Notes under the pieces: generated by a model | Told to the model about the DNA's origin: nothing | Database searches by the model: none | Seen by the model: the letters and a program-made list of their open reading frames with translations, nothing else | Shown: positions 33,867-39,923 of the stretch, one piece after another | Layout: each line of letters begins with the position of its first letter | How positions within the stretch are numbered: position 1 is the first letter of the stretch | Origin: an uncultured beta proteobacterium | GTDB taxonomy: Bacteria > Pseudomonadota > Gammaproteobacteria > Burkholderiales > Burkholderiaceae_C | Reading direction: 5' to 3' | Assembly (NCBI GenBank): GCA_903838565.1 | Contig: CAILZB010000060.1 | Location: 124,001 to 188,000 of the forward strand | DNA: 64,000 nt | Program-made: the position numbers and the translations under genes

Positions 33867-33951
33867 CGGGCGCTCGAATCACGAACCTGCTGCACCTGAC
33901 CTCTTGACTGGAGTAGCATCGCTGGCGAAGAACGCCATGAGAATACACGCC

Positions 33952-34383
33952 ATGCCTGACAAGAAAAGCACGAAGTCGGCCCCGAACGCCGCCCCCGACG
34001 GCGCGGCTGAGGAAACGCCGCATCCGCCGAGCGCGGCGCCAGCAAAGGCCTTTCCCATCGTCGGCCTGGGCGCCTCGGCCGGCGGGCTGGAGGCGTTCGA
34101 GCAGTTCTTCCAGCACGCGACCACCGACAGCGGCATGGCCTTCGTGCTGGTGCCGCATCTGGACCCCAGCCACGCCAGCATCCTGACGGAGATCCTGCAG
34201 CGCAGCACCACCATGCCGGTACTGGAAGCGGTGGACGAGGTGCTGGTGCAGCCGGACCATGTCTACATCATCCCGCCGAATCGCGACATGGGAATCTTCA
34301 ACGGCCGGCTGCAGCTGAGCGTTCCCGAGCAGCCGCGCGGGCAGCGCATGCCGATCGACGCCTTCCTGCGCTCGCTCGCCTAA
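33952..34383 (+). pseudogene. CheB methylesterase N-terminal part, cut by an in-frame TAA
   Basis: This is the first part of a CheB-CheR-PAS chemotaxis-type protein. It has the CheB triad serine in GLGASAGGLEAFE and the histidine in VPHLDPSHAS. The frame then ends at TAA (34381-34383) in the sequence RSLA-stop-DQGENAVG, where relatives have RSLAEDQGE: a GAA to TAA change. The third triad residue, the Asp of SGTGTDG, lies after the stop in the same frame. So the methylesterase is split between two frames of the same phase. Start choice (33937 or 33952) is uncertain. Confidence 0.8.
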
Positions 34384-34401
34384 GACCAGGGCGAGAATGC
34401 C

Positions 34402-36945
34402 GTGGGCATCATCCTCTCGGGCACCGGCACCGACGGCACGCTCGGGGCGCGCGCCATCCACGGAGCCGGCGGCATCACGCTGGTGCAGGAGCCGACCCAG
34501 GCCAAGTTCGACGGCATGCCCTCGAGCGCGATCCAGGCCGGCTACGTCACGCAGGTCCTGCCTGCGGACCAGATGCCGCAGGCCCTGCTGTCCGGCGTGC
34601 GCAAGCTGGCTGTGCTGCAAAAACTGCCGCTGACCACCGCTTCCGGCGGCAGCATGAACCGCATCCTGGCGCTGCTGCGCTCGGCCACGGGGCACGATTT
34701 CTCGCAGTACAAGAAGAGCACCATTGGCCGGCGCATCGAGCGGCGCATGTCGCAGCACGACATTGACGACACCGAGGTCTATGTGCGCTACCTGAAGGAG
34801 CACCCCTCCGAACTCGTGGTGCTGTTCAAGGAGTTGCTGATCAACGTGACGCGGTTCTTTCGCGACCCGGAGGCCTTCGTCGCACTCAAGGTTGACGTGC
34901 TGCCGATGCTGTTCAAGGACAAGCCCGAAGACGATGTGTTTCGCGCCTGGGTGCCCGGTTGCGCCAGCGGGGAGGAGGCCTACTCCATCGCCATGCTGCT
35001 GCGCGAATACATGGACGAGACGCAGCGCGAGTTCAAGGTCCAGCTCTACGCCACGGATCTGGACGACGACGCGATTGCCAGCGCGCGCGCCGGGGTCTAT
35101 CCGCCCAACATTGCGCAGGACCTCACGCCCGAGCGGTTGCGGCGCTTCTTCAGCAAGGATGACGCCGGGTTCCGGGTGAGAAAGGATATCCGCGAGATGG
35201 TGGTGTTTGCGGTGCAGAACGTGATCAAGGACCCGCCCTTCACCCGGCTGGACCTGCTGAGTTGCCGCAACCTGATGATCTACCTGGAGCCGGCATTGCA
35301 GGCGCGCCTGATACCGGCTTTCCACTACGCACTCAAGACCGGCGGCGTGCTCTTCCTCTCGCCCTCGGAGAGCATAGGCAACCATCCGGAATTGTTCGTC
35401 TCACTGAACCGCAAGTGGAAGCTCTACCGCGCCACGCCTTCGGCCGCGTCGGTGCGCGCGCTCATGTCCAGCGGCATGGCCTGGGCCGCCGGCGGCGCAA
35501 CCAAAGCACCCGAGGAATCCATGCAGAAATCCAAGGAAGTCAACTTCGCCGAACTCACGCGCCGCGTGCTGCTCCAGTCCTACGCACCAGCCTCGGTGGT
35601 GACGGACCTCAAGGGCAACATCCGCTTCGTGCACGGCGACACCGGCCGCTACCTGCGCGCGCCGCCGGGACAGGCCACGCTCAACGTGGTCGAGATGGCG
35701 CGCGAAGGCCTGCAGCTCGATCTGCGCGCGGCGGTGCTGGCGGCAACGCAGGGAACACCCACGCTGGAGCGCGAAGTGTCGGTGCGCACCAACGGCGAGT
35801 TTCACAGCGTGGCCTTCAGTGTGCGCACCCTGTCCGAGCCCGACGCGGGCGAGGACCTGCTGCTGCTGAGCTTTGAGGAAGTGACGCACAAGGCGCCCAG
35901 GGCGCCGACGGCGAAGTCCAAGGGAGGCAAGCGTGCCGCCGCCTCGGCCGAGCGCACGCGCGTGGAGGAACTGGAGCGCGAGCTGGGCTACACCAAGGAG
36001 AACCTGCAGGCCACGATCGAAGAGCAGCAAGCGTCGAACGAGGAGCTCAAGTCGGCCAACGAGGAGATGCAGTCGACCAACGAGGAGATGCAGTCGACCA
36101 ACGAGGAGCTGGAGACATCCAAGGAAGAGCTGCAGTCGGTGAACGAGGAACTGATCACCGTCAACACCGAGCTGCAGTCCAAGATCGAGCAGTTGTCCAG
36201 CATGCAGAATGACATGAAGAACCTGCTCGACAACATCAACGTCGGCACCATCTTTCTGGACCAGCATCTGGCCATCCGGCGCTTCACCCGCGACGCGGTC
36301 AAGGTCTATCGGCTCGCCGCTTCGGACGTGGGCCGCCCCTTGAGCGACATCAAGTCCAACCTTGAAGGCGAAGACCTGCTGCGCGAATCGCAAAGCGTGC
36401 TCGACACGCTGGTGCCGGTGGAGCGCGAAGTGCGCAGCGCCGACGGCACCTGGTTTCTCGCGCGCGTCCAGGCCTACCGCACCGTGGACAACGTGATCGA
36501 TGGCGTGGTGCTGACCTTCACCGACATCACCGAGCGCATTGCCGCCATCGCCGAGCGCGAAGCGCGCAAGCTCGCCGAAGGCCTGGTGGACGCGGTGCTG
36601 GAGCCGTTGGTGGTACTCGACGGCGACCTGCGCGTGGTCGCCGCCAGTCGCTCCTTCTACAGCAGCTTTGGCCTGAACGAGCGCGACACGGCGGGCCGCC
36701 TGCTCTTCGAACTCGGGGCACAGCAGTGGGACGCGCCGTCCCTGCGCGAAGCGCTGCAGGAGGTGTTGCTGCACGACCAGAGTTTCAGCGGATTTGTGCT
36801 GGAGGGCGACTTCCCCGGGACCGGTCGGCGCAAGCTGGTGCTCAACGCACGGCGCATCGTCGGCGGTGCGCGCCACACCGCCTTGATCCTGCTGGCGGTG
36901 CAGGATGCCTGCGCGCCACCCCTTCCCGCGAACGCCACACCCTGA
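34402..36945 (+). CDS. CheB(remnant)-CheR-PAS chemotaxis-type protein, downstream part
   Basis: An 847-residue open frame continuing the interrupted gene in the same phase. Order: the end of the CheB domain (VGIILSGTGTDGTLGARAI), CheR methyltransferase (KKSTIGRRIERRM, FFRDPEAF, the SAM motif WVPGCASGEEAYSIAML, NVIKDPPFTRLDLLSCRN), a PAS-like region, a long coiled coil made of NEEMQST-type heptads, and a C-terminal PAS domain. GTG at 34402 could restart translation, giving a CheR-PAS protein without methylesterase. In intact relatives both activities are in one chain. No cheA or receptor gene is nearby. Confidence 0.85.
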   Translation: MGIILSGTGTDGTLGARAIHGAGGITLVQEPTQAKFDGMPSSAIQAGYVTQVLPADQMPQALLSGVRKLAVLQKLPLTTASGGSMNRILALLRSATGHDFSQYKKSTIGRRIERRMSQHDIDDTEVYVRYLKEHPSELVVLFKELLINVTRFFRDPEAFVALKVDVLPMLFKDKPEDDVFRAWVPGCASGEEAYSIAMLLREYMDETQREFKVQLYATDLDDDAIASARAGVYPPNIAQDLTPERLRRFFSKDDAGFRVRKDIREMVVFAVQNVIKDPPFTRLDLLSCRNLMIYLEPALQARLIPAFHYALKTGGVLFLSPSESIGNHPELFVSLNRKWKLYRATPSAASVRALMSSGMAWAAGGATKAPEESMQKSKEVNFAELTRRVLLQSYAPASVVTDLKGNIRFVHGDTGRYLRAPPGQATLNVVEMAREGLQLDLRAAVLAATQGTPTLEREVSVRTNGEFHSVAFSVRTLSEPDAGEDLLLLSFEEVTHKAPRAPTAKSKGGKRAAASAERTRVEELERELGYTKENLQATIEEQQASNEELKSANEEMQSTNEEMQSTNEELETSKEELQSVNEELITVNTELQSKIEQLSSMQNDMKNLLDNINVGTIFLDQHLAIRRFTRDAVKVYRLAASDVGRPLSDIKSNLEGEDLLRESQSVLDTLVPVEREVRSADGTWFLARVQAYRTVDNVIDGVVLTFTDITERIAAIAEREARKLAEGLVDAVLEPLVVLDGDLRVVAASRSFYSSFGLNERDTAGRLLFELGAQQWDAPSLREALQEVLLHDQSFSGFVLEGDFPGTGRRKLVLNARRIVGGARHTALILLAVQDACAPPLPANATP
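36050..36112 (+). repeat. 21-bp tandem repeat encoding heptads in the coiled coil
   Basis: Nearly identical 21-bp units containing gtcgaccaacgaggagatgc (about 36050-36112) encode STNEEMQ repeats. They may expand or contract by recombination without changing the frame. Confidence 0.7.
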
Positions 36946-36971: not shown

Positions 36972-37925
36972 TCACGTCGCCTGGACTGATGGCCGGATCG
37001 GCGGTCGATGCAGGCACCCCTGCTCGTCGACCGCGAGGTAGTCCACCTGCTGCGCATCGAGGAAGGCCAGCGCCCCGTCGCCCTTGAGCATGGCGATCGT
37101 GGTGAGCGCACCGGCAGCCAGACAGGCCGGCGCCACGACGCTCACCGATTGCCAGCCGTGCACCGGCCAGCCGCTGCGCGGATCAAGCACGTGGCAATAG
37201 CGCCGGCCGTCGACTTCGAAGAAGCGCTCGTAATCGCCGCTGGTGGCCAGCGCGCCCTGGTGCAGGCTCATGGTCGCCAGCAGCGCGCCCGGCTGGCGAG
37301 GATGGGCGATGCCCAGCGCCCAGGGTTCGCCGTCGGGCCGGGGACCGACGAGCCGGATGTCGCCGCCCAGATTCACCATGGCCGAGCTCGCGCCCAGGCG
37401 CTGCAACAGCGTGGCAGCGCGGTCGGCAGCGTACTCCTTGCCGATACCACCGAAATCGAGCTCCATGCCCGCGCGCGGCAGGGCCACCTGGCCACCGGCC
37501 CAGTGCACCTGATGCCAACCCACCAGCGGTAGCAGCGCCTCAAGCTGTCCGGCCGCGGGAGCGCGAGCGGCCTTGAAGTCCCAGGCGCGGCGCAACACGC
37601 CCGAGGTGACGTCGAACAGGCCGTCGCTGGCGGCGTGCAGCTGTGCGGCAAAGTCGAGCAGGTGAGCGGTTTCTTCGTCCACGGCCAACGCCGCGCCCGT
37701 TCCGGCTGCGGCATTGATGCGCGAGAGCACGGAATCGGCCCGGTAGCGCGAATAAGCGGTCTCGATGCGCCGCACTTCGGCGATGGCCTGGTGCGCGAGG
37801 CGGGTTGCATGCGCCGCCGCCAGACCGCTGATGCGCACTTCGCAAACGCAGGCCATGGCGCCGAACTCGAAGCCGATATCTTCTGTCGCGCCGCCATCGG
37901 CTCCGGAGAACGTAGAGGCAGACAT
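36972..37925 (-). CDS. apbE: FAD:protein FMN transferase ApbE
   Basis: A 317-residue flavin transferase that attaches FMN through a phosphoester to Ser/Thr of target proteins using FAD and Mg. Family segments are AYSRYRADSVLSRINAAAG, LDFGGIGKEYAADRA (about residue 155), MVNLGGDIRLVG and ATSGDYERFFEVDGRRYCHVLDPRSGWPV. No clear signal peptide is visible, so localisation is uncertain. It is last in an operon with DUF3570 (13-bp gap), DUF4266 and TlpA-like genes, and the DUF3570 protein carries the modification motif it should recognise. Confidence 0.94.
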   Translation of the reverse strand: MSASTFSGADGGATEDIGFEFGAMACVCEVRISGLAAAHATRLAHQAIAEVRRIETAYSRYRADSVLSRINAAAGTGAALAVDEETAHLLDFAAQLHAASDGLFDVTSGVLRRAWDFKAARAPAAGQLEALLPLVGWHQVHWAGGQVALPRAGMELDFGGIGKEYAADRAATLLQRLGASSAMVNLGGDIRLVGPRPDGEPWALGIAHPRQPGALLATMSLHQGALATSGDYERFFEVDGRRYCHVLDPRSGWPVHGWQSVSVVAPACLAAGALTTIAMLKGDGALAFLDAQQVDYLAVDEQGCLHRPPIRPSVQAT

Positions 37926-37938
37926 GGCCGACTCGCTC

Positions 37939-39126
37939 TCAGAACTTGCGGCTGACCCCGAGCATCAGGACGGTCGAGTTCAAGGGCGCCAGTCCGGCCG
38001 AGCCCGCACCCAGGCACCAGTTGCCGCGCTGCGAACTGACCTCGACCTTGGCGTCTGCGCTCCACAACCGGTCGATGCGGTAGTCGACCTTCAGGCCCAG
38101 CGTGAACGAGCCAAACGCCGACAGTCTCGGGTCGAGCGAAATGTTGTGCGGCGGCTGTGCCGCGTCGAAACCCGACGGGTAGGGTGCACCCAGCACCGGG
38201 TCGTAAACCGGCCCACGGTAGAAGCTCGCGGCGCTCTGGGTGTAGTAGCGCAGCATGGGTGTGAGGGTGTAACTCACGCCCAGCGGCTGCACCCACTCGG
38301 CCTGCAGCGTGTGGGCGCGGATGCCATCGCTGTCGCGGTACCAGCGGTAGCTGGTGCGCAGCGTGGAATCAAAGGCAAACTGGTGGTTCCAGCGCGCCAG
38401 CAGCGCGCTCTCGTTGTGGAAATCAGGGCGCTGGTCCAGTGCCTTGTAGGCGTCGTTGTAGTAGCCCGTTCCATGGCTCAGGCTCAGATTGAACTGCAGC
38501 AGATCCTGCGCCGACCAGGCCTGCGTCACGCCCAGCAGCAGTTGCTGCGTCTGCTTGCGCTGTGTTGTCACCAGATGGTTGGCCGGGTTGATGCTGTCGC
38601 GCGACAGGCCCAGTCCGAAGTTCAGCGTCGTGTTGTTGTCTTCGCTGGAGCGGCTGGCATCGAACGAGGCGGCGTTGGAGTGGTAGTCGTGCTCGGTCGA
38701 GCGGCTGATGCCCAGCGCCAGGGAACTGCGCTCGCCGTAGTGCGTGATCTTGATGTCGCCCGCGAGGCGTCTTTCATGCATCACCGAGGCGCTTGAAACC
38801 GAGCTGTGCCAGCGCGGCGTGGCACCCGACACCACGTCGATCACGCCCGCACCCTCCAGCGACCAGCGCGGCGACAAAGGCGCCAGCACATAGATCGACG
38901 GCGCATCCACCCGCACGCGCTGCAGCCCCGGCTGCGAGTCCTGGTAGTGCAGGAACTTGAGCCCGATCACGCCCTCTTCGGGCGCAGTTTCAGCGTGGGC
39001 CTGGCTCCACACGCCGGGCAGCGCCAAGGCGGCCAGCACCACCGCGCCCATGCCGGGATGAAGAGCCGCTGGACGCGGGCAGCCGGTGACGGGCGCCACG
39101 GGCAAATTGTCTTGTTTTGTCGTCAT
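37939..39126 (-). CDS. DUF3570 outer-membrane beta-barrel with DxxSGAT flavinylation motif
   Basis: A 395-residue exported protein of the DUF3570 family. A signal region ends at QAHAE (about residue 45). The rest has alternating hydrophobic, aromatic-rich strands and ends in phenylalanine (LMLGVSRKF), as outer-membrane barrels do. Near the start of the mature protein is DVVSGAT (residues 97-103; bases 38818-38838), which matches the DxxSGAT flavinylation motif of NqrC and RnfG, where the last Thr carries FMN. ApbE is the next gene. Function is not established; covalent flavin on a barrel-associated protein is inferred. Confidence 0.88.
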   Translation of the reverse strand: MTTKQDNLPVAPVTGCPRPAALHPGMGAVVLAALALPGVWSQAHAETAPEEGVIGLKFLHYQDSQPGLQRVRVDAPSIYVLAPLSPRWSLEGAGVIDVVSGATPRWHSSVSSASVMHERRLAGDIKITHYGERSSLALGISRSTEHDYHSNAASFDASRSSEDNNTTLNFGLGLSRDSINPANHLVTTQRKQTQQLLLGVTQAWSAQDLLQFNLSLSHGTGYYNDAYKALDQRPDFHNESALLARWNHQFAFDSTLRTSYRWYRDSDGIRAHTLQAEWVQPLGVSYTLTPMLRYYTQSAASFYRGPVYDPVLGAPYPSGFDAAQPPHNISLDPRLSAFGSFTLGLKVDYRIDRLWSADAKVEVSSQRGNWCLGAGSAGLAPLNSTVLMLGVSRKF

Positions 39127-39137
39127 CGCTGTTCGTT

Positions 39138-39386
39138 TCAGTTGCAGCCGCAGCCGCCGCCACCGACGCCCGAGCCGCCGGAGGCGGCTTCCTTGCTGGT
39201 GGAAATGTGCTCATCCAGGCGCTGCTCCAGCGGATCCCGGTTCATCGTCATCGCCGGTTTGGCCAGCGCGCCTTTCTCCCAGGCCTGGGGCGGGTTGAAG
39301 CTCGAGCAGCCGCCCAGCAGCAGCGCGCCCCAGGCGGCGCAGGGCCACAGCAGCGAGCGCGGCGTTCGAGATGCGATCACGGTCAT
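39138..39386 (-). CDS. DUF4266 small lipoprotein with C-terminal CxC
   Basis: An 82-residue lipoprotein. The lipobox is LGGC with lipid-Cys at residue 27, followed by SSFNPPQAWEKGALAKPAMTM, the DUF4266 core. The C terminus is a Gly-rich tail ending GGGGCGCN, with two cysteines that could bind metal or form a redox pair. It lies between the TlpA-like gene (9-bp gap) and DUF3570 (11-bp gap), so it probably works with both. Role unknown. Confidence 0.88.
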   Translation of the reverse strand: MTVIASRTPRSLLWPCAAWGALLLGGCSSFNPPQAWEKGALAKPAMTMNRDPLEQRLDEHISTSKEAASGGSGVGGGGCGCN

Positions 39387-39395
39387 GCGGTACTT

Positions 39396-39923
39396 TCAGT
39401 TCTTTTGCGAGACGAGAGGGCTGGACGAGTTGAGCGCAGCCGCGATCTGCGCTTCAAGCTGCGCGCGTTCTTCGTTGCGAAAACCCTGGTGCAGGTAGAG
39501 CAGCTTTCCGTCAGCACCGATCAGCACCGAGGTGGGCATGGCCTTGACGCCAAAGCGGCGCGCGCTTTCGCCCCGCGGGTCGAACGCGAGCGCAAACGAG
39601 GCCGGGTTCCAAGCCAGGAATCCGTCGGCGTCGCCACGTTTGGCGTCCAGGTTGATCGCCAGCACCTGAAAGCCCCTGGCTGCGTATTTCTTCTGCATCT
39701 CGTTCATCCACGGGAACGATTGCTTGCACGGTCCGCACCACGAGGCCCAAAAGTCCACATAGACGAGCTTGCCGCGCAGGTCGGACAGGTGGGCCACGCT
39801 GGCGCCGGGCAGCTCGACTTCGGGCGCCGACTGGCCCAGTTCGATCGCCTGCGTCGGCAAAGCCGCCAGGCACAGCGACAGGACCAGGGCCGGCAAGGCG
39901 CACAGGCGTTTCATTCTTTTCAT
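39396..39923 (-). CDS. TlpA-like periplasmic thioredoxin
   Basis: A 175-residue exported thioredoxin-fold protein. The signal peptide ends at LPTQA (about residue 26). The active site is DFWASWCGPCKQSFPWMNEM with WCGPC (about residue 63). The cis-Pro is in VKAMPTSVLIG. It is the first gene of the TlpA-DUF4266-DUF3570-ApbE operon and could keep the CxC tail of the DUF4266 lipoprotein reduced. Confidence 0.93.
   Translation of the reverse strand: MKRMKRLCALPALVLSLCLAALPTQAIELGQSAPEVELPGASVAHLSDLRGKLVYVDFWASWCGPCKQSFPWMNEMQKKYAARGFQVLAINLDAKRGDADGFLAWNPASFALAFDPRGESARRFGVKAMPTSVLIGADGKLLYLHQGFRNEERAQLEAQIAAALNSSSPLVSQKN

Follow-up and report, generated by a model that had tools for sequence, protein, structure and literature searches.

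A catalogued DUF3570 operon with a conserved flavinylation motif and a signal-less ApbE as a candidate outer-membrane electron-transfer unit

According to main-text passages of Meheust et al. 2021 (PMC8238504), DUF3570 proteins associated with ApbE carry two [ST]GA[ST] motifs, and the DUF3570 protein of Chlorobium luteolum is flavinylated by its cognate ApbE, the flavin being lost only when both sites are changed. The same passages count 227 DsbD clusters with DUF3570 and 316 clusters of ApbE, DUF3570, a thioredoxin-like protein and DUF4266 without DsbD, and they propose that the CXC tail of DUF4266 may cycle. The target motif of ApbE is given as D-x-x-[S/T]-G-A-[S/T] in passages of a 2025 review (PMC12052999). 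Here we analyse an operon of this type in DNA of an uncultured beta proteobacterium of the Burkholderiales (GenBank assembly GCA_903838565.1, contig CAILZB010000060.1, forward-strand positions 124,001 to 188,000); this whole stretch of 64,000 nucleotides is referred to as the window, and coordinates are window positions. Four genes, encoding TlpA, DUF4266, DUF3570 and ApbE, were called as open reading frames (ORFs) at 39923-36972, all on the minus strand. They share with the 2021 clusters the same four families, the same motif and the same DsbD-less gene set, and the operon is thus a member of a published, catalogued cluster type without firm function.

The first-pass annotation of this DNA, made from the letters alone, had inferred covalent flavin mononucleotide (FMN) on DUF3570 and had described such loci as noted in surveys with no known function. 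Flavinylation had already been shown for the family; because the covalent flavin and the four-gene cluster type were both published in 2021, the inference is not new and the claim to novelty fails, while the ideas on the site and on redox use hold. New here are a flavin that, in a structural model, would face outward, and an ApbE clade that is dedicated to such operons, lacks a signal peptide and differs from other ApbEs in its active-site residues. We give an even chance to the reading that the products of the operon form an outer-membrane unit for electron transfer that carries flavin, is loaded with it in the cytosol and faces outward. Neither barrel nor porin is used as a word in the main text of PMC8238504, whose passages, supplementary files aside, say nothing of a signal-less or altered-active-site ApbE linked to DUF3570. 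DUF3570 is absent from a 2024 paper (PMC11334425) and not named in passages of the 2025 review (PMC12052999). In the open-access literature searched, DUF3570 or DUF4266 was found only in Meheust et al. 2021, no report of a flavinylated barrel or porin was found (one NosX paper and haem-type conduits turned up), and neither an outward flavin nor the signal-less ApbE clade was found, supplementary files not being covered.

Flavinylation motif and barrel model of DUF3570

The DUF3570 protein (395 aa; 37939-39126, minus strand; Pfam E-value 2.3e-56) contains DVVSGAT at residues 97-103 (SGAT at 100-103; codons 38818-38838, minus strand), the canonical ApbE flavinylation motif. When the mature protein was shuffled 20000 times, a D..[ST]GA[ST] pattern arose by chance in 77 cases. 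Conservation was assessed in 82 sequences, comprising the 80 best of 285 relatives, the window protein and the second copy in its genome; the 80, by title from Burkholderiales, other betaproteobacteria and Chlorobiaceae, came from named genomes and were found via a conserved stretch other than the motif. The pattern [DE]xx[ST]GA[ST] is kept at the aligned first site in 81 of the 82, the exception being the second copy in the window's genome, which reads DAVSNAS. Of the 82 sequences, 80 have D and 2 have E at position 97; all have S or T at position 100 and A at position 102, 81 have G at position 101, and position 103 is split between S (66) and T (16). A separate alignment of 12 sequences from the order shows no variation at Asp97 and Ala102 and almost none at Ser100 and Gly101. 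Judged by these alignments, DVVSGAT is a conserved ApbE site, with FMN predicted on Thr103. The DxxSGAT-type motif noted in the first-pass annotation is thus borne out, and its covalent FMN agrees with this conservation and with the published flavin of the C. luteolum relative. Its proposed check, conservation of the motif in homologues, gives a clear result for close relatives and a weaker one for distant Pseudomonadota loci, where the motif is kept less often.

A second site, SGAS, lies downstream in many relatives. The window protein has a degenerate form there, SSAS for SGAS (VSSAS, residues 110-114; codons 38785-38799, minus strand), in which Ser114 is 11 residues past Thr103, and the [ST]GA[ST] motif of the 2021 clusters is accordingly found at its first site and not at its second. 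Some Limnohabitans and Chlorobium DUF3570 proteins are also without the second site.

The AlphaFold2 model of the window DUF3570, built on alignment A2 with 64 of 81 available sequences (alignment A3 used 38 of 81), is a 16-strand barrel with a predicted local distance difference test score (pLDDT) of 87.3 and a predicted template modelling score of 0.83. All 50 structure matches listed by Foldseek and all 50 listed by VIA-align are outer-membrane proteins by title; among the best-matching solved structures listed are BamA (Z 22.0, root-mean-square deviation 3.5, 275 residues), CdiB (Z 20.5), PelBC (19.6), a polysaccharide outer-membrane secretin (19.4), CymA (19.2) and BcsC (19.0). These fold matches, a signal judged by eye from the sequence, an even number of predicted strands (16) and the C-terminal Phe are the marks of an outer-membrane β-barrel, which upholds the earlier description of a barrel ending in Phe.

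In the model the motif forms the end of strand 3 (88-102) and the second site lies just before strand 4 (115-130). Loop lengths add up to 97 residues on the side of the motif and to 26 on the opposite side. In barrels of this kind the termini and the short turns are usually periplasmic, and we take the strand 3-4 motif hairpin to be extracellular because the long loops lie on its side. The flavin sites are therefore predicted to sit in this hairpin, where the barrel opens to the outside, and the FMN that the first-pass annotation had placed near the barrel start would instead be at the outer end of strand 3. Conservation of lumen-facing residues climbs toward the motif side (0.65, 0.70 and 0.82 by thirds), the outer half being more conserved than the inner (Mann-Whitney p 1.9e-4), and lipid-facing residues are without that trend (0.61, 0.47 and 0.51 by thirds); facing was assigned per strand by hydropathy, which is weak for strands 2, 7, 8, 12 and 16. 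Near-invariant residues make up 37 of 211 outer versus 10 of 131 inner positions (Fisher p 0.0097), and invariant charged residues near the outer mouth could hold the FMN phosphate and the substrate. The topology is alike in a model of the Chlorobium ferrooxidans DUF3570 (pLDDT 84.5), with strand 3 at 84-97 and a flexible loop at 100-115.

Fusions of DUF4266 to DUF3570, suspected from long DUF3570 ORFs, were ruled out, the extra length being upstream out-of-frame extensions. Two genomes encode, alongside DUF4266, DUF3570 proteins with DTWSGA[ST] that are 912, 946 and 1002 aa long (L004 = L198, L005, L017 = L203); these would be much larger barrels of what is seemingly the same system.

An ApbE clade without a signal peptide

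The ApbE-family FMN transferase of the operon (317 aa; 36972-37925, minus strand) matches Pfam PF02424 with 268.3 bits (cut-off 25.6; E-value 9.7e-80) and belongs to the family. Its domain begins at residue 24 with no hydrophobic stretch ahead, and it has neither the canonical periplasmic signal nor a lipobox. Leaders were judged by mean hydropathy over a span of 10 residues with a cut-off of 1.9, in place of a trained signal-peptide predictor. A hydrophobic leader by this measure is present in 2 of 53 operon ApbEs (L091, L099), taken from operons in which ApbE directly follows DUF3570, versus 29 of 30 other ApbEs, which are the 29 best-scoring matches from genomes of the class (not a random draw) and the ApbE on contig C101 of this genome. 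From the DUF3570 stop to the ApbE domain the median distance is 21 codons, with at most 30 in 39 of the 53 operons. Among 22 further linked Pseudomonadota ApbEs, none of the 21 that could be judged reaches 1.9 (highest 1.84); the L192 ApbE was left out of the count because its match starts inside the domain.

Two active-site changes are shared by these enzymes: canonical AKG has become xKE (Glu164), and the aspartate of canonical D-x3-T has become Gly272. Glu164/Gly272 is present in the window ApbE, in all 44 linked ApbEs of one set, drawn from 58 linked matches with a length filter of 250-380 aa, in 22 of the 24 linked ApbEs of another, and in 0 of 40 comparison ApbEs, two rows of which are the same sequences as the two linked exceptions. 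The D-x3-T position holds D or E in 39 of the 40 comparison ApbEs, an acidic residue that the window enzyme lacks. In the ApbE phylogeny, a quick tree, the window and signature-bearing linked ApbEs fall on one side of a branch (67 rows) with a Shimodaira-Hasegawa-like approximate likelihood ratio of 98. The role of the lost aspartate, which we take to be a Mg ligand (D284/T288 in Treponema Ftp), may have passed to Glu164. As far as sequence comparison goes, the operon ApbE is a separate clade tied to DUF3570 in two phyla, and it is unlike the usual periplasmic ApbE in having no signal peptide and altered active-site residues.

Typing of 20 extra loci, 16 from one ApbE search and 4 from another, chosen because their frames are short or their profile matches begin late, yielded 13 with Glu164/Gly272. 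DUF3570, DUF4266 and TlpA are all present in eight of the 13 (L216, L217, L219, L220, L221, L227, L228, L231), and a ninth, L224, where the contig ends, has only DUF3570. By genome, DUF3570 is found in 12 of 13 with a Glu164/Gly272 ApbE versus 0 of 12 whose only ApbE is not of that type, 11 of these ApbEs being canonical and one neither; the search also covered eight untyped genomes, of which three have DUF3570. The short ApbEs of L225, L232 and L233, which start at the domain (PLLGTFVE), keep the canonical D/G residues and are not accompanied by DUF3570 in the stretch, are another kind without evident signal.

Because the operon ApbE is signal-less and its clade co-occurs with DUF3570, FMN is probably attached in the cytosol before DUF3570 is exported. 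Main-text passages of PMC8238504 describe a signal-truncated A. ursilacus pair, a C. luteolum pair cloned similarly, and purification of DUF3570 from the pellet in guanidine. Since the protein came from a guanidine-treated pellet and from constructs of the signal-truncated type, the unfolded chain may be accepted as an ApbE substrate, which fits, and does not prove, attachment before export.

The more distant Pseudomonadota loci are of two kinds. The 32 loci compared are 31 of 34 places found via DUF4266 in 398 genomes plus one other, the three places left out being two of the own genome and one below cut-off. A Glu164/Gly272 ApbE is nearby in 22 of them (in L186 on the other strand); two of the other ten have a signature-less ApbE ~5-6 kb away and eight have none in the stretch. 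The first site is canonical in 17 of the 22 loci with the signal-less ApbE versus 3 of the 10 others. In these ten it reads SSAS or SNAS in six, GAS in three and TAAS in one, and an RGA stretch is found in nine of the ten DUF4266 tails. ApbE is present in all 29 genomes of the 32 loci. For nine of the ten loci of the other kind, one ApbE of the genome was fetched; two of these ApbEs are on a different contig from DUF4266, and the distance to DUF4266 is ~6-18 kb for six and ~100 kb for one.

The genome that contains the window (4.35 Mb, 141 contigs) has three ApbE genes and two DUF3570 loci, and no match to FMN_bind (PF04205) at E 0.001 anywhere in it. Its second DUF3570 cluster (L030, G000:C112:46000-64000), of the other locus kind, encodes beside ApbE, TlpA, DUF4266 and DUF3570 also a cupredoxin, an iron permease (FTR1), proteins that resemble outer-membrane barrels, and a CxxCH protein containing a hydrazine-synthase-alpha domain. 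In the window's family, the ApbE that belongs to this second type of cluster (L030 4710-5768; L188, L199) has Glu at 272 and Lys at 276, positions at which D and T are usual. The third ApbE, at the C101 locus (L031), lies by a NosR-like membrane protein and CxxCH proteins in what appears by eye to be a quinoprotein dehydrogenase locus. That NosR-like protein, on a contig other than the window's, weakly matches the RnfG model (E 0.0069), and for this reason the first-pass statement that no Nqr/Rnf partner is present is true of the operon surroundings and not strictly of the genome. The idea that the genome has no other flavinylation target is weakened as well, since the NosR-like protein adjoins the C101 ApbE. 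None of five candidate stretches on viral contigs was confirmed as a relative.

Partner genes, related loci and the proposed electron route

The remaining two genes of the operon encode a TlpA/ResA-like thioredoxin (175 aa; 39396-39923, minus strand; Redoxin E-value 3.1e-22), with an N-terminal hydrophobic signal (by eye) and WCGPC, and a small DUF4266 lipoprotein (82 aa; 39138-39386, minus strand; E-value 1.8e-21), with a lipobox-like LLGGC, likewise judged by eye, and a Gly-rich tail ending GGGGCGCN. The tail ends in CGC[NY] in 33 of 33 DUF4266 rows (32 Pseudomonadota loci). The intergenic gaps are 9 bp (TlpA-DUF4266), 11 bp (DUF4266-DUF3570) and 13 bp (DUF3570-ApbE), and the ORFs and Pfam matches confirm exactly the gene order, gaps and motifs reported at first pass.

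In the mechanism that we propose, the dedicated signal-less ApbE would move FMN from flavin adenine dinucleotide (FAD) to Thr103 of the unfolded DUF3570 in the cytosol, and the chain would be exported by Sec and assembled as the modelled 16-strand barrel. The hairpin between strands 3 and 4 would then place the covalent FMN at the outer mouth, turned toward a polar vestibule that is conserved, with the topology taken from the model and the side from the loop lengths. The periplasmic thioredoxin would be charged by a DsbD-type protein encoded elsewhere; the genome has one DsbD_TM (DsbD-family) match, on contig C95, and the operon is of the DsbD-less locus kind. The thioredoxin is predicted to reduce the CGC pair with which the flexible, Gly-rich tail of the outer-membrane lipoprotein DUF4266 ends, the tail to hand electrons to the barrel flavin, and the flavin to pass them on to an acceptor at the surface, probably Fe(III) or a cytochrome located there. 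A swinging arm is favoured because the extended Gly-rich tail could span much of the barrel lumen. It is this route, from thioredoxin through CGC tail and FMN to the outside, that we infer.

Neighbours were counted in the 80 related loci, contigs cut at their ends included, with partners found by phmmer. Within 6 kb of DUF3570, DUF4266 is present in 68 of the 80, TlpA in 61, ApbE in 58 and all three in 50. A DsbD cluster is found in 23 of the 80 loci (Pfam checked on one member), and a choice-of-anchor-D protein is encoded upstream in 18, at a median of 769 bp before DUF3570. These choice-of-anchor-D proteins are cytochrome-like (example L107:7037-9148): CX2-4CH is present in 17 of their 20 ORFs, the three that lack it starting near a contig edge, and 13 of the 20 have a JDVT-CTERM tail. 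JDVT-CTERM is akin to MYXO-CTERM. Proteins with the latter reach the cell surface in Myxococcus, as stated in passages of PMC11980579. These DsbD and cytochrome-like neighbours of relatives fit an electron outlet at the cell surface; they were not recognised in the window itself, and JDVT-CTERM gave nothing above cut-off in the window's own genome.

Genes for DUF1800 and DUF1501 (Pfam: one member each) lie near the operon in L068, L077, L078, L079, L090 and L091. In the window, a CheB-CheR-PAS-like gene, so named from its translation (33904-36945, plus strand), is convergent with apbE and is interrupted by an in-frame TAA at 34381-34383, which leaves ORFs 33904-34383 and 34402-36945 in one frame; it is a pseudogene, a sequencing error or two genes.

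Several observations weigh against an outward-facing unit loaded in the cytosol. Of the 22 distant loci with a signal-less ApbE, five have no canonical first site: L195, L196 and L197 have SGGT there and L182 has GGAS, all four with a second site of [ST]GAS; L180 (LTGSS, TGSS at the first site) has no canonical site at all. Four of the 13 Glu164/Gly272 ApbEs in the typing sample (L218, L222, L223, L226) are without a partner gene within ~6 kb, and the supposition that such an ApbE always adjoins DUF3570 was rejected; genome G560 (L222), rated 100% complete, has a signal-less Glu164/Gly272 ApbE but no DUF3570 match. The second DUF3570 of the window's genome (C112) has two relaxed sites, DAVSNAS and DVVTTAS, and relaxed-site DUF3570s depend, if flavinylated at all, on ApbEs without Glu164/Gly272. 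No report was found of an FMN-bearing chain passing Sec. Seven of the nine ApbEs fetched from other-kind genomes bear a hydrophobic leader (at least 2.2), and DUF3570 can for this reason probably work with another ApbE; that other-kind loci always have a signal-bearing ApbE was not upheld, since only these seven reach the cut-off, and other-kind ApbEs of the window's family fall below it (L208 1.58, L209 1.06, own C112 1.77). The C101 ApbE of the same genome has a signal-like leader and could act in the periplasm. These leaders speak for flavinylation in the periplasm, before insertion by the β-barrel assembly machinery, by another, exported ApbE, the operon ApbE being cytosolic for some other reason or leaking out. 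We consider this unlikely, in that the operon ApbE forms a distinct clade associated with DUF3570 in two phyla and the C101 ApbE has a likelier client in the NosR-like protein that it adjoins.

The electron route has its own counterevidence. At least one partner was not found by phmmer in 30 of the 80 loci, some of which are cut contigs and some Chlorobium loci with other neighbours; no DsbD, cytochrome or iron gene was recognised by eye in translations adjoining the window operon; and no redox or localisation data were found for any of the four proteins. The second cluster of this genome, with its cupredoxin and FTR1 iron permease, and the 25 gene clusters with a VIT1 iron transporter in main-text passages of the 2021 survey (PMC8238504) suggest a role in metal handling, in which the CGC tail would bind iron or copper, the thioredoxin would keep the tail reduced, and the flavin barrel would reduce Fe(III) or Cu(II) on the outside of the cell for uptake and not for respiration. 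This is doubtful for the window operon, beside which no metal transporter was recognised in translations read by eye. A flavin that is structural or protective, aiding folding or serving as a sensor with no electrons passing through the barrel, would agree with passages of PMC12052999 in which FMN attachment helped the folding and solubility of a recombinant FMN-binding domain; the frequent thioredoxin and CxC protein companions argue for redox use, and we regard such a flavin as very improbable here.

Returning to an electron-transfer unit that is loaded in the cytosol, if its flavins face outward then DUF3570 would give Chlorobiaceae, Burkholderiales and further groups of the window's phylum a haem-free electron route over the outer membrane. 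With an ApbE clade that serves an exported protein from the cytosol, the usual view of secreted proteins as receiving covalent FMN after export would change, and attachment in the cytosol would avoid the need to supply FAD outside it. More tentatively, DUF3570 operons may in general form a haem-free outer-membrane flavin conduit, the counterpart of MtrCAB and Cyc2, in which a cytosolic ApbE clade with a relocated carboxylate would load FMN before Sec, one or two FMN would sit at the extracellular mouth, and the CGC swinging arm, reaching into the lumen, would link the periplasmic thioredoxin pool to acceptors at the surface, for instance Fe(III) or JDVT-CTERM-anchored cytochromes.

Comparison with known systems

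MtrAB is an outer-membrane porin-cytochrome conduit. Cyc2 and PioAB, as described in PMC8406198 and PMC6831781, also combine a redox cofactor with an outer-membrane barrel that moves electrons, and the operon may resemble them in this respect. It is not a member of this group: the predicted cofactor is a flavin and not a haem, no CxxCH haem site was found in the four operon translations read by eye, and the partners are a thioredoxin and a CxC lipoprotein.

The operon ApbE shares with the periplasmic ApbEs that act on NqrC, RnfG and NosR-type targets the family match, GGD, TSG, H245 and the target motif. It differs from them in having no signal or lipid anchor, Gly272 for Asp and Glu164 for Gly, and in a predicted target that is an outer-membrane barrel and not an FMN_bind domain. 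In its lack of a signal peptide and its presumed cytosolic working place it is like the cytosolic ApbE of Klebsiella pneumoniae described in passages of PMC12052999, whose target is a soluble fumarate reductase, whereas the target here would be exported to the outer membrane.

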